Shown in pieces: positions 18,547-35,090 of a DNA stretch of 64,000 nucleotides. The position numbers and the translations under genes were made by a program. The notes under the pieces were generated by a model that was not told the origin of the DNA, ran no database searches, and worked only from the letters and a program-made list of their open reading frames with translations. The stretch is from Halalkalibacter krulwichiae. Lineage in GTDB: Bacteria > Bacillota > Bacilli > Bacillales > Bacillaceae_D. Numbering within the stretch: position 1 is the stretch's first letter; the number at the start of each line of letters is the position of its first letter. Where the stretch lies: the NCBI RefSeq assembly GCF_002109385.1, contig NZ_CP020814.1, positions 2,007,501 through 2,071,500 on the forward strand, in the 5' to 3' direction.

Positions 18547-19836
18547 ATGAGTACGACAATCGTAAAAAAAGTAGAAAGTGGCCTTACAGGATCAATTAAG
18601 ATTCCTGGCGATAAATCTATATCTCATCGAGCGGTCATGTTTGGTGCTATCGCAAACGGAACAACGACTGTAGAAGGTTTCTTACCTGGGGAAGATTGTC
18701 TCAGTACAATTGACTGTTTTCGTAAACTTGGAGTTAAGATCGAACAAGAAGAAGAGAAAGTAACGATTGAAGGGAAAGGTTGGGAAGGACTAACAGAACC
18801 TTCAGAAATTCTAGATGTAGGAAACTCAGGAACAACAACTCGCTTAATGCTAGGTATTTTAGCTACACGTCCATTTCATTCAGTTGTTATTGGTGACGAT
18901 TCAATTGCAAAAAGACCGATGGCGCGAGTGACAGACCCTCTTCGTAGTATGGGTTCAGACATTGATGGAAGAGATAATGGCAATTACACCCCTTTATCAA
19001 TTAGAGGCGGAGAAACAAAAGCGATTGCTTTTGAGTCTAAAGTTGCAAGTGCCCAAGTTAAGTCTGCCATTCTGTTGGCTGGTTTGCAAAGTGAGGGAGT
19101 TACATCCGTTACTGAACCTGCACTGTCTCGTGATCACACAGAAAGAATGCTTGAAGCTTATGGGGTAGAGGTAAAAAGAGATGGTTTAACGGTTTCAGTT
19201 GAAGGTGGCCAAACATTAACTGCTCAACATATTGTAGTTCCTGGTGACATCTCATCTGCTGCGTTTTTCTTAGTGGCAGGTGCTATTGTCCCTAATAGTA
19301 AAATTACTTTAGAAGCAGTTGGTCTTAATCCAACCCGCTCGGGAATTATTGATGTTTTGAAACAAATGGGAGCAGACCTTGTCATTCATAATGAAAAAAT
19401 GGTTGGTGGAGAACCACTTGCAGATGTCACTATTTCAACTTCGCATTTAAAAGGAATTGAAATTAGTGGAGATTTGATTCCAAGGCTAATTGATGAAGTT
19501 CCAGTGATTGCTGTTTTAGCAACTCAAGCAGAAGGGCAAACGGTTATCCGTGATGCAGAAGAACTAAAAGTAAAAGAAACTAACCGAATAGATACGGTTG
19601 TAAGTGAGCTTAAGAAACTTGGAGCAAACATTAAAGCAACTGAAGATGGCATGATCATCGAAGGTAGAGCTTCTTTAAATGGTGCATCGGTTAGCAGTCA
19701 TGGAGATCACCGTATTGGAATGGCGATGGCGATTGCTGGATTAATTACAAACGGAAATGTTACGGTTAATAGAAGTGATGCCATAGCGGTTTCTTACCCT
19801 AGCTTCTTTGAGCATATTGAGGCATTAAAAAAATAA
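18547..19836 (+). CDS. aroA: 5-enolpyruvylshikimate-3-phosphate synthase
   Basis: 429 residues (aroE in B. subtilis). [28 protein letters not shown] carries the substrate-binding Lys and Ser. [73 protein letters not shown] and [16 protein letters not shown] are all present. The glycine-rich GNSGTTTR resembles glyphosate-tolerant class II enzymes. It sits 11 bases after tyrA and ends the supraoperon. Confidence 0.97.
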
Positions 19837-19888: not shown

Positions 19889-19987
19889 TAAAAAAATCTC
19901 CTTATCAAAAACGAAAGCGTTTTCAATAAGGAGTTTAGCAAAAGCTAAAATTTGTATGGATAGGAGTGGAGAGAAACCATACGCTTA
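19889..19987 (-). ncRNA. Predicted ~98-nt small RNA on the minus strand
   Basis: Read on the minus strand, a perfect -35 TTGACA (complement of 20016-20021) and a perfect -10 TATAAT (complement of 19994-19999) are 16 bases apart, giving a start near 19987. Hairpin 1 is GTATGG with CCATAC (19977-19982 and 19954-19959), closing a 17-base CU-rich loop. Hairpin 2 is TTTAGC-TTTT-GCTAAA (19934-19949). Hairpin 3 (19898-19933) has an 8-bp outer and 6-bp inner stem and is followed by seven U (19890-19896), a textbook terminator. No open reading frame is evident. No gene lies on this strand nearby, so the unit stands alone. The loop UCUCUCCACUCCUAU resembles anti-Shine-Dalgarno loops of regulatory RNAs. 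I do not recognise a known family. Confidence 0.75.
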
Positions 19988-19993
19988 ATTCAT

Positions 19994-20021
19994 ATTATAG
20001 ACGAATTGAAATTATTGTCAA
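19994..20021 (-). promoter_or_regulatory. Consensus sigma-A promoter for the minus-strand small RNA
   Basis: TTGACA and TATAAT both match the consensus 6/6, with a 16-base spacer (20000-20015). It points away from the plus-strand gene at 20119 and directly into the hairpin-rich segment ending in a U run. Confidence 0.85.
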
Positions 20022-20118: not shown

Positions 20119-21078
20119 ATGTATTTATTAGATAAGGCAATTAGAGTTGAAGACTGTAAAAGAACGTTACGTTCCTATTTAATTAAAGATGGACAAATAC
20201 AATATGTAACGAAAACATTTGAAAAGTGGAATAAAAGAAGAGTAGCAATGAATGGAATTGCGATGGCTGATGGAAGAGTTATGTTTGATGATGGTATCTT
20301 AAAATGTACGGACTTTCATGGATTTCAAAAACGACAGATCGAATTGATACGAAAGGGCTGTACAACCATTGCTGCGGCTCCTAACGTGAAATATGAAAAG
20401 GATATTGAAGCTGAATTGAAAAGAGCAAAACATTCGATGGCAAGTAGCACGCTAGACTATACTATCGGTTTAACCATTCCTATAAAGTTATTACGGCCAT
20501 CTCTTTTAAGAGTTTGCCAACAACATCGTATCCCTTTTTTAAAGGTGCAAATTGAATCATTCTCTGACATTAAACACTTACCTTGGACACACATATCTCA
20601 AACACTTCTCACTTACCATTCTGTCTTGATTCCTGATTTCAACTTGGTTTCTGAGAAGTTCAAGGACCTAGCATTTAAAGAATGGATGAGATGTTGTGAA
20701 AGATTTCAAATTCATACAGATGCTCCTATGCAATCATTAAAAAGGTGGTCAAAAACTAGTTTACAAAAAGTGGGGTTATATCCTAAGAAAGGGGTATTGC
20801 TCAATGGAAGTGATGCAGATTATTTATTATTCCATATAAATGAAACTCAAAATCAAATTTCGCTAGAGCAAAATGTTGCACGTCAAGCGCAGAATGTTTA
20901 TGATGAGAAAGAACCGGTTATAGTAGTTTTAAAAAGTGAAATTATAAAATCGAATGAACAGATTACCCTTCGTCCTGGTTTTGGTCGTTTGGTTGAAGTG
21001 AAAAGGCCTGGACGATTTCTATCTTTATCGGACGTTTCGTATTATGAACAACTACACCGGCAGCTAAGTAGTAGTTGA
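20119..21078 (+). CDS. Uncharacterised protein with amidohydrolase-like outline
   Basis: 319 residues, not recognised as a named family. The outline resembles metal-dependent amidohydrolases of the dihydropyrimidinase type: an N-terminal YLLDKAIRVED and MADGRVMFDDGIL part like their small beta domain, then ELIRKGCTTIAAAP, then DYTIGLTIPIKLLRPSLLRVCQQHRIPFLKVQIES. The HxH metal motif, the carboxylated lysine and the later histidines are not visible, so any such relation would be to a dead enzyme. ATG 20119 follows GATAGGAGGAGTGG. It stands between aroA and ypiA and ends in its own hairpin. Function unknown. Confidence 0.7.
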   Translation: MYLLDKAIRVEDCKRTLRSYLIKDGQIQYVTKTFEKWNKRRVAMNGIAMADGRVMFDDGILKCTDFHGFQKRQIELIRKGCTTIAAAPNVKYEKDIEAELKRAKHSMASSTLDYTIGLTIPIKLLRPSLLRVCQQHRIPFLKVQIESFSDIKHLPWTHISQTLLTYHSVLIPDFNLVSEKFKDLAFKEWMRCCERFQIHTDAPMQSLKRWSKTSLQKVGLYPKKGVLLNGSDADYLLFHINETQNQISLEQNVARQAQNVYDEKEPVIVVLKSEIIKSNEQITLRPGFGRLVEVKRPGRFLSLSDVSYYEQLHRQLSSS

Positions 21079-34975: not shown

Positions 34976-34984
34976 TTTTGTGAT

Positions 34985-35063
34985 GGGCGGTATCCATTTG
35001 GAACTGCACCGTAATACTTATTAAAATAGCGGATCTGCCTTGATCCAGTTTGGACTAGGACAG
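34985..35063 (+). promoter_or_regulatory. Tandem Pan-motif RNA upstream of panB
   Basis: Two hairpins of the same plan are visible. Copy 1 (34985-35010): GG-GCGGT-[A92]-TCC stem paired with GGA-ACTGC-[A108]-CC. Copy 2 (35035-35063): CTG-CCT, G, [A43], TCCA paired with TGGA, C, AGG, [A60], CAG. Each stem has one bulged adenine on each side. The Pan motif, known from comparative genomics of pantothenate operons, is described as a stem with two conserved bulged A residues, often in tandem before panB. Both copies here fit, and panB follows. The ligand and mechanism are not known to me. Confidence 0.85.
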
Positions 35064-35090
35064 AGGGGTTGCATAACTTAAACGTACGCA

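Follow-up and report, generated by a model that had tools for sequence, protein, structure and literature searches.

Organization of the predicted small RNA gene

Within the window, by which we mean the whole stretch of 64,000 nucleotides that was analysed, a predicted small RNA (sRNA) gene locates on the minus strand at 19987–19890, between aroA (18547–19836) and the gene at 20119. Its features are as follows.

20016..20021, minus strand: −35 hexamer TTGACA, from the promoter scan
19994..19999, minus strand: −10 hexamer TATAAT behind a 16-nt spacer, from the promoter scan
19890..19987, minus strand: small RNA of about 98 nt, its start at 19987 predicted from the promoter only
19957..19980, minus strand: 24-nt core AUGGUUUCUCUCCACUCCUAUCCA, from reading homologous loci
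19960..19976, minus strand: 17-nt CU loop UUUCUCUCCACUCCUAU of hairpin 1, from the fold
19982–19977 paired with 19959–19954, minus strand: stem of hairpin 1, from the fold
19934..19949, minus strand: hairpin 2, lineage-specific and missing in some relatives, from the fold and the relatives' loci
19890..19933, minus strand: intrinsic terminator, a 16-pair stem (19933–19898) followed by seven U (T at 19896–19890)
19912..19925, minus strand: cre-like CcpA operator TGAAAACGCTTTCG within the terminator stem, from the sequence

The arrangement TTGACA-16-TATAAT is the sole 12/12 promoter in the 6 kb scanned, where the runners-up reach 10/12. The predicted fold of 19987–19889 (99 nt) contains three hairpins at −30.1 kcal/mol, and among 200 shuffles of this segment (mean −11.9, sd 2.8) none is as low, corresponding to a z of −6.5. 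The preliminary description had proposed an orphan unit of about 98 nt with three hairpins, its own promoter and a seven-U terminator, and the promoter scan and the fold bear out its coordinates and anatomy. The CU loop that it assigned to the first hairpin is indeed displayed at 19976–19960. The cre-like box at 19925–19912 did not figure in that description, nor did the targets, the invariant core and the breadth of the family.

Two further observations concern the surroundings. The neighbor gene at 20119–21078 on the plus strand has only weak dihydropyrimidinase-like matches. Further along the window, at 34984–35067 on the plus strand, a pan motif RNA (RF01749) is found with 64.2 bits, a leader to be expected at pantothenate genes.

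Conservation of the core, promoter and terminator

A blastn search with the element matched 52 of 100 genomes, its own included; the window's family is represented by all 41 of its genomes in the set, and the order level by 11 of 59. One of the order-level matches (G057) covers the terminator only and one match (G040) was not fetched, and 50 loci were read. The core AUGGUUUCUCUCCACUCCUAUCCA is unchanged in 49 of them, with one substitution in L043; in the window's family, 40 loci were read among the 41 matching genomes, and one carries a single core change. A pattern search for the core allowing up to three mismatches matched 73 of 397 order genomes, 72 of which hold an exact copy, and the reversed pattern gave one hit. 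Of 14 near-matches with one to three mismatches, six were read (L234–L239), none of which represents a variant form of the RNA. We rejected the idea that they are second sRNA copies (paralogues), since five of the six are ribosome-binding sites (RBSs) of targets; L239 (G050) looks like chance.

Among named genomes, at least 118 contigs contain the exact core. The 80 titles among the matches listed include Halalkalibacter, Shouchella, Pseudalkalibacillus, Fictibacillus, Alteribacillus, Marinococcus, Geomicrobium and Caldalkalibacillus, together with Brevibacillus, Aneurinibacillus, Paenibacillus, Cohnella, Thermobacillus, Thermoactinomyces and Melghirimyces. The bearers thus range over alkaliphilic Bacillaceae, Paenibacillaceae and Thermoactinomycetaceae as well as Brevibacillus and Aneurinibacillus. 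Invariance of the core within this named set holds by construction, as the search was for exact matches. The same exact-match search in viral contigs found none.

For the comparison of whole genes, 154 non-redundant loci were drawn from L002–L169 by removing those near an end, those with N and duplicates. Most of these were found by exact match, so that the fair test of core invariance is provided by the blastn search, the loci read and the mismatch-tolerant search. The promoter scores 12/12 in 88 of the 154 loci and at least 9 in all, with no 12/12 promoter in shuffles; a perfect TTGACA is the top-scoring −35 in 102 loci, and a perfect TATAAT the top-scoring −10 in 123. In all 154 loci, the T run comes after a hairpin. 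Hairpin 1 belongs to the predicted fold of only 94 loci, indicating that its stem is not universal, whereas the core sequence is.

Promoter, core and terminator are thus kept in close relatives, where a lack of conservation would have told against the preliminary description. Its suggestion that compensatory changes would prove the three stems does not work out: stem 1 shows almost no variation in alignment A1, hairpin 1 is folded in 94 of 154 loci, and some relatives have no hairpin 2. RNAalifold on A1 returned stem 1 alone because MAFFT misaligns the terminator, and we make no claim of covariation. A chance arrangement without function is practically out of the question, being refuted by the conservation in 41 of 41 family genomes and across the 154 loci.

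The preliminary description had also stated that the sRNA holds no reading frame. In fact, an AUG locates 7 nt past the predicted 5′ end and opens a frame of 11 codons (MVSLHSYPYKF), though this frame is not maintained among relatives. The AUG is present in 154 of 154 loci, which would suit a dual-function or coding RNA whose conserved AUG starts a short peptide (MVSLHSYP...). We consider this very improbable. The eight core codons show no change except the one substitution in L043, the frame varies in length from 8 to at least 39 codons and enters the terminator in 66 of the 154 loci, and a Shine-Dalgarno sequence is absent from the 7 nt ahead of the AUG.

The position of the gene is also kept, in two orientations. 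Of the 50 loci read from family to order level, 38 have the sRNA opposed to the nearest tyrA, aroA or ypiA homologue, and 12 have it in the same direction; for the named set (118 loci among the matches listed), the orientation is the same in 91 and opposite in 24, and 3 have no such neighbor. Since the same place carries both orientations, the sRNA is most probably neither a leader nor a processed 3′ UTR. In 106 of the 118 named loci among the matches listed, one of the window genes tyrA, aroA, ypiA, the 20119 gene and qcrA does have a homologue within 1 kb, and the RBSs of the 20119 gene (GATAGGAGGAGTGG) and of aroA each match the CU loop over 8 nt, as one might expect of a cis-acting element of the neighbors, either a leader, an attenuator or an antisense RNA to the aroA–ypiA intergenic region. 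Against the two orientations and the own promoter and terminator found throughout the loci, such an element is hardly credible, and the leader or attenuator form of it is rejected on the orientations. Judged by sequence, the gene has what a trans-encoded base-pairing sRNA should have, namely its own promoter and terminator and no host gene.

A cre-like operator in the promoter or terminator

The box TGAAAACGCTTTCG has one mismatch to TGNAANCGNWNNCW, which we take as the consensus of the catabolite-responsive element (cre) and used for scoring. With up to one mismatch allowed, a cre is found in 145 of the 154 non-redundant loci, vs about 12 in mononucleotide shuffles. It locates in the promoter only in 58 loci, in the terminator only in 48, in both in 39 and in neither in 9; the last include Aneurinibacillus, Melghirimyces, Thermoactinomyces and two Pseudalkalibacillus loci. 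In many Paenibacillus loci among the matches listed, the box occupies the spacer between −35 and −10. A terminator stem could mimic a cre, and therefore other terminators of the same loci were used as a control: 75 of 152 sRNA terminators contain a cre, vs 10 of 325 other terminators.

A cre conserved at the gene in 145 of 154 loci, on this consensus, is what a member of the CcpA regulon should possess. The sRNA gene thus appears to be a putative member of this regulon, to which CcpA would bind. By analogy with RosA and RsaI, beside which we place it, the sign of regulation would be repression.

Complementarity to ribosome-binding sites in the window's family

As a probe for targets, we used AGGAGTGGAGAG, the complement of 12 loop bases. 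In the 41 family genomes, it occurs at 47 places besides the sRNA itself (the sRNA copy being present in 40 genomes), vs 21 for the reversed control. All 47 places were read, and 40 are RBS-placed, which means that a start codon lies 12–18 nt past the first base of the match and opens a frame of 135 codons or more which does not lie within a much longer frame. These 40 sites include 11 at the homoserine dehydrogenase gene hom, 9 at the phosphoserine aminotransferase gene serC, 7 at DAHP synthase/chorismate mutase, 2 at folD and 1 at serA, so that the RBSs of hom, serC and DAHP synthase account for 27 of the 47 non-self perfect 12-nt complements. Targets were named by NCBIfam for one representative per gene and by eye for the remainder. 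In 41 order genomes without the core, by comparison, the probe occurs at 10 places (control 12), none of them at hom, serC or DAHP synthase.

We then consider orthologues fetched regardless of the presence of the 12-mer, taking the best 30 loci per gene of 40 (hom), 40 (serC) and 41 (DAHP synthase) matching genomes. Loop-complementary runs of at least 9 nt are found in 13 of 27 distinct hom RBSs, 13 of 25 serC RBSs and 18 of 25 DAHP synthase RBSs, vs a background of 1 in 206 RBSs, all from the window and the neighborhood of the sRNA. When RBSs with the discovery 12-mer are left out, the mean duplex energy is −21.4 kcal/mol for hom (n=19), −18.8 for serC (n=19) and −20.8 for DAHP synthase (n=22); among 300 shuffled loops, 0, 0 and 1, respectively, pair as well. 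The three families were picked because of their matches, the start codons were chosen by script with a few doubtful cases (L309, L313), and P-values of this test ignore shared ancestry; genomes lacking the RNA are the more telling control. Fifteen hom RBSs from such genomes give a mean of −14.7 kcal/mol, near background, although one of them scores −24.0 (L426) and L449 is a more distant homologue.

In the genome of the window, the hom RBS is a 12-nt perfect complement of sRNA nucleotides 19973–19962, and the DAHP synthase RBS is complementary over 10 nt. The serC RBS (L343) is only partly complementary, and no start was assigned there. An 8-nt pattern plus a start codon occurs at 35 places, vs 20 in the control; 30 loci were read, among which hom and DAHP synthase are strongest by run length with long frames, and nine-nucleotide matches also occur at thrS, rplS, ribF and others (names by eye). 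As a separate matter, we notice that the serC frame of this genome looks broken early in the gene, either by a sequencing error or in reality.

Taken together, the single-stranded region of the sRNA is complementary to RBSs of unlinked genes in the window's family, and this complementarity is conserved with the sRNA. Target prediction with the CU loop yields RBSs of recurring genes, in keeping with the anti-Shine-Dalgarno role that had been suggested for it. The sequences support a tie between complementarity to the hom, serC and DAHP synthase RBSs and the presence of the RNA in this family.

Targets in other lineages and the invariance of the core

On the side of Paenibacillus, Cohnella, Brevibacillus, Aneurinibacillus, Thermoactinomyces and Caldalkalibacillus, 12 sRNA-bearing genomes were compared, and in 11 of them the hom RBS has a complementary run of 5–7 nt; that of Caldalkalibacillus has 10 nt. 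One hom RBS with a run of at most 7 nt (L446) still reaches −26.9 with gaps. One of three sRNA-bearing genomes of other families is also without hom pairing. RBS complementarity at hom is therefore mostly absent on the Paenibacillaceae side though the core is kept, which indicates that our account lacks either a shared ancestral target or a different partner.

Among the matches listed for 11-nt complements on the Paenibacillaceae side, 50 loci were read, of which 15 are the sRNA itself. The 35 non-self sites divide into 24 without a start codon and a 100-codon frame and 11 that are RBS-like, at least 3 of the latter (L252, L269, L292) lying inside genes. No target gene recurs among these matches listed. 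Likewise, 859 RBSs of the 8-kb named loci contain no recurring strong target besides gapped matches at tyrA of the Brevibacillus type (L093, L099, L147), where the core complementarity amounts to about −23 to −25 kcal/mol.

We observed several single cases. In two Paenibacillus genomes, the RBSs of an HPr-family gene (L272) and of a SorC/DeoR-type sugar regulator (L268) carry GGAGTGGAGAG; the former gene has 92 codons and falls under the 100-codon cut. The two are suggestive as single candidate targets, and since HPr is the co-factor of CcpA, a feedback loop is conceivable. In one other family, galT RBSs (L234–L236, three of nine near-copies read) hold a near-perfect complement of the core reaching the start codon, which is the longest pairing observed. 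In one genus, the RBS TGGATAGGAGTGGAGAG (L237 and L238, two of three near-copies read) is complementary to the core over 17 nt and precedes, on the other strand, a homoserine-dehydrogenase-like oxidoreductase (named by eye).

These data bear on another reading, in which the sRNA is real and controlled by CcpA, its core is mainly there for a different partner (a protein, a second sRNA, or a mimic of the anti-Shine-Dalgarno sequence at the 16S rRNA 3′ end), and the pairing with hom, serC and DAHP synthase came later as a lineage-specific addition. We hold it possible but rather unlikely. It would account for the persistence of the core in Paenibacillaceae and Thermoactinomycetaceae, lineages in which the hom RBS mostly does not pair, for 11-nt complements that mostly lie outside RBSs there (24 of 35 without start and frame), and for an unchanged length that exceeds the needs of short seed pairing. 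However, the window's family shows strong, gene-specific complementarity that goes together with possession of the RNA, and Paenibacillaceae targets could use other parts of the core. In the same tentative vein, we speculate that the 24-nt core could rank among the least variable sRNA sequences of Bacillales owing to one universal partner besides mRNAs; it might, for instance, imitate the anti-Shine-Dalgarno tail of 16S rRNA and be recognized as such by the ribosome or an RNA-binding protein. The sRNA might then be an ancient CcpA-controlled brake on anabolism, with targets re-chosen in each lineage and the cre moving between promoter and terminator.

Proposed mechanism

From the anatomy of the gene, its conservation, the cre boxes and the recurring RBS complementarity with its negative control, all read from sequence, we think it likely that this is a CcpA-repressed, trans-acting base-pairing sRNA which, under a shortage of preferred carbon, keeps amino-acid-biosynthesis genes from being translated. 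Here we infer transcription of the gene, CcpA binding and the sign of its effect, as well as the translational block. When the preferred sugar is plentiful, active CcpA would sit on the cre boxes over the promoter spacer and/or the terminator stem and keep the sRNA off, either by obstructing RNA polymerase or by forming a roadblock. Once preferred carbon becomes scarce, the strong promoter would be released and the sRNA would accumulate. The exposed CU loop (CUCUCCACUCCU and its extensions) would pair with the Shine-Dalgarno region of target mRNAs and prevent ribosome binding. The targets would be hom (threonine and methionine), serC (serine) and DAHP synthase/chorismate mutase (aromatics), with serA, folD or galT in single lineages. 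The target enzymes commit carbon derived from oxaloacetate, 3-phosphoglycerate and erythrose phosphate to amino acids.

If this is true, CcpA gains a means of acting after transcription, by which amino-acid biosynthesis and not sugar catabolism is shut down at low preferred carbon, giving a direct link between carbon status and anabolism. A near-unchanged 24-nt core combined with lineage-specific targets would be a good case for studying what keeps an sRNA constant, and an operator built into the terminator stem of the gene itself would be notable. The galT RBS may be compared with the galactose-operon target of Spot 42, a catabolite-controlled sRNA of Escherichia coli. Spot 42 is repressed by CRP and so is high in glucose, a sign opposite to that proposed for the present sRNA.

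Comparison with known small RNAs

In Rfam 15, no family reaches its gathering threshold at the window locus, and matches up to E 10 contain nothing convincing, the sub-threshold ones being at chance level. The search agrees with the preliminary description, which knew of no RNA family here. Twelve other sRNA loci searched up to E 1 gave three matches, none of which reaches its threshold: in L052, Hrs13 (35.2 bits, cut-off 52), for the most part over the terminator; ylbH on the opposite strand of L159 (25.0 bits, cut-off 50); and DUF805b elsewhere in L048 (20.5 bits, cut-off 35.6). Together with the conservation and the RBS complementarity, the Rfam result supports the orphan regulatory RNA with an anti-Shine-Dalgarno loop that had been put forward. 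In the literature, no description of the sRNA was found among the matches listed. A transcriptome study of Paenibacillus riograndensis gives 27 small RNAs, 3 of them annotated (PMC5670726), and the present sRNA may be among the 27.

The systems closest in control are RosA and RsaI. RosA of Bacillus subtilis (S345) is a stand-alone sRNA repressed by CcpA via a site at its start (PMC8216469). It resembles the present sRNA in being stand-alone and CcpA-linked and in tying carbon supply to post-transcriptional control, but it is a sponge of ~225 nt whose G-rich regions bind RoxS and FsrA (PMC8216469). The present sRNA, in contrast, has ~98 nt, is CU-rich and is complementary to ribosome-binding sites of mRNAs, and 19987–19890 contains no G-rich single-stranded region. 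RsaI (RsaOG) of Staphylococcus aureus is also CcpA-regulated (PMC8216469); its two GGGG tracts bind RsaE, and it is reported to be conserved in Staphylococcus but not in Bacilli (PMC8216469, PMC9217828). For RsaOG, no Rfam match up to E 10 was found at the locus, and GGGG is absent from the sRNA sequence.

The mode of pairing resembles that of other sRNAs. FsrA of B. subtilis (RF02273) has 84 nt and a C-rich single-stranded region proposed to pair with RBSs, and differs in being Fur-controlled with iron-sparing targets (PMC8464778). We rejected an FsrA homologue, as the RF02273 covariance model has no match in the genome of the window. RoxS/RsaE likewise uses C-rich regions to bind metabolic mRNAs and inhibit translation, under the different control of ResD and Rex (PMC8464778), and it has no Rfam match at the sRNA locus. 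SR1 of B. subtilis is repressed under glycolytic conditions and has homologues across the order Bacillales; however, it is 205 nt long, mainly CcpN-controlled, encodes SR1P and targets ahrC and kinA (PMC8464778). The present sRNA, with 98 nt and an 11-codon frame, differs from an RNA of ~205 nt with SR1P. GcvB of Escherichia coli is an example of one sRNA acting over many amino-acid uptake and biosynthesis genes (PMC11878033); it is an enteric RNA and is likened to the present sRNA by role alone.

By the tests made, the sRNA belongs to none of FsrA, RoxS, RosA and RsaI. Our best reading, within the scope of Rfam and the literature among the matches listed, is an undescribed sRNA family that probably works like the C-rich RBS-binding sRNAs FsrA and RoxS, under control resembling that of RosA and RsaI.
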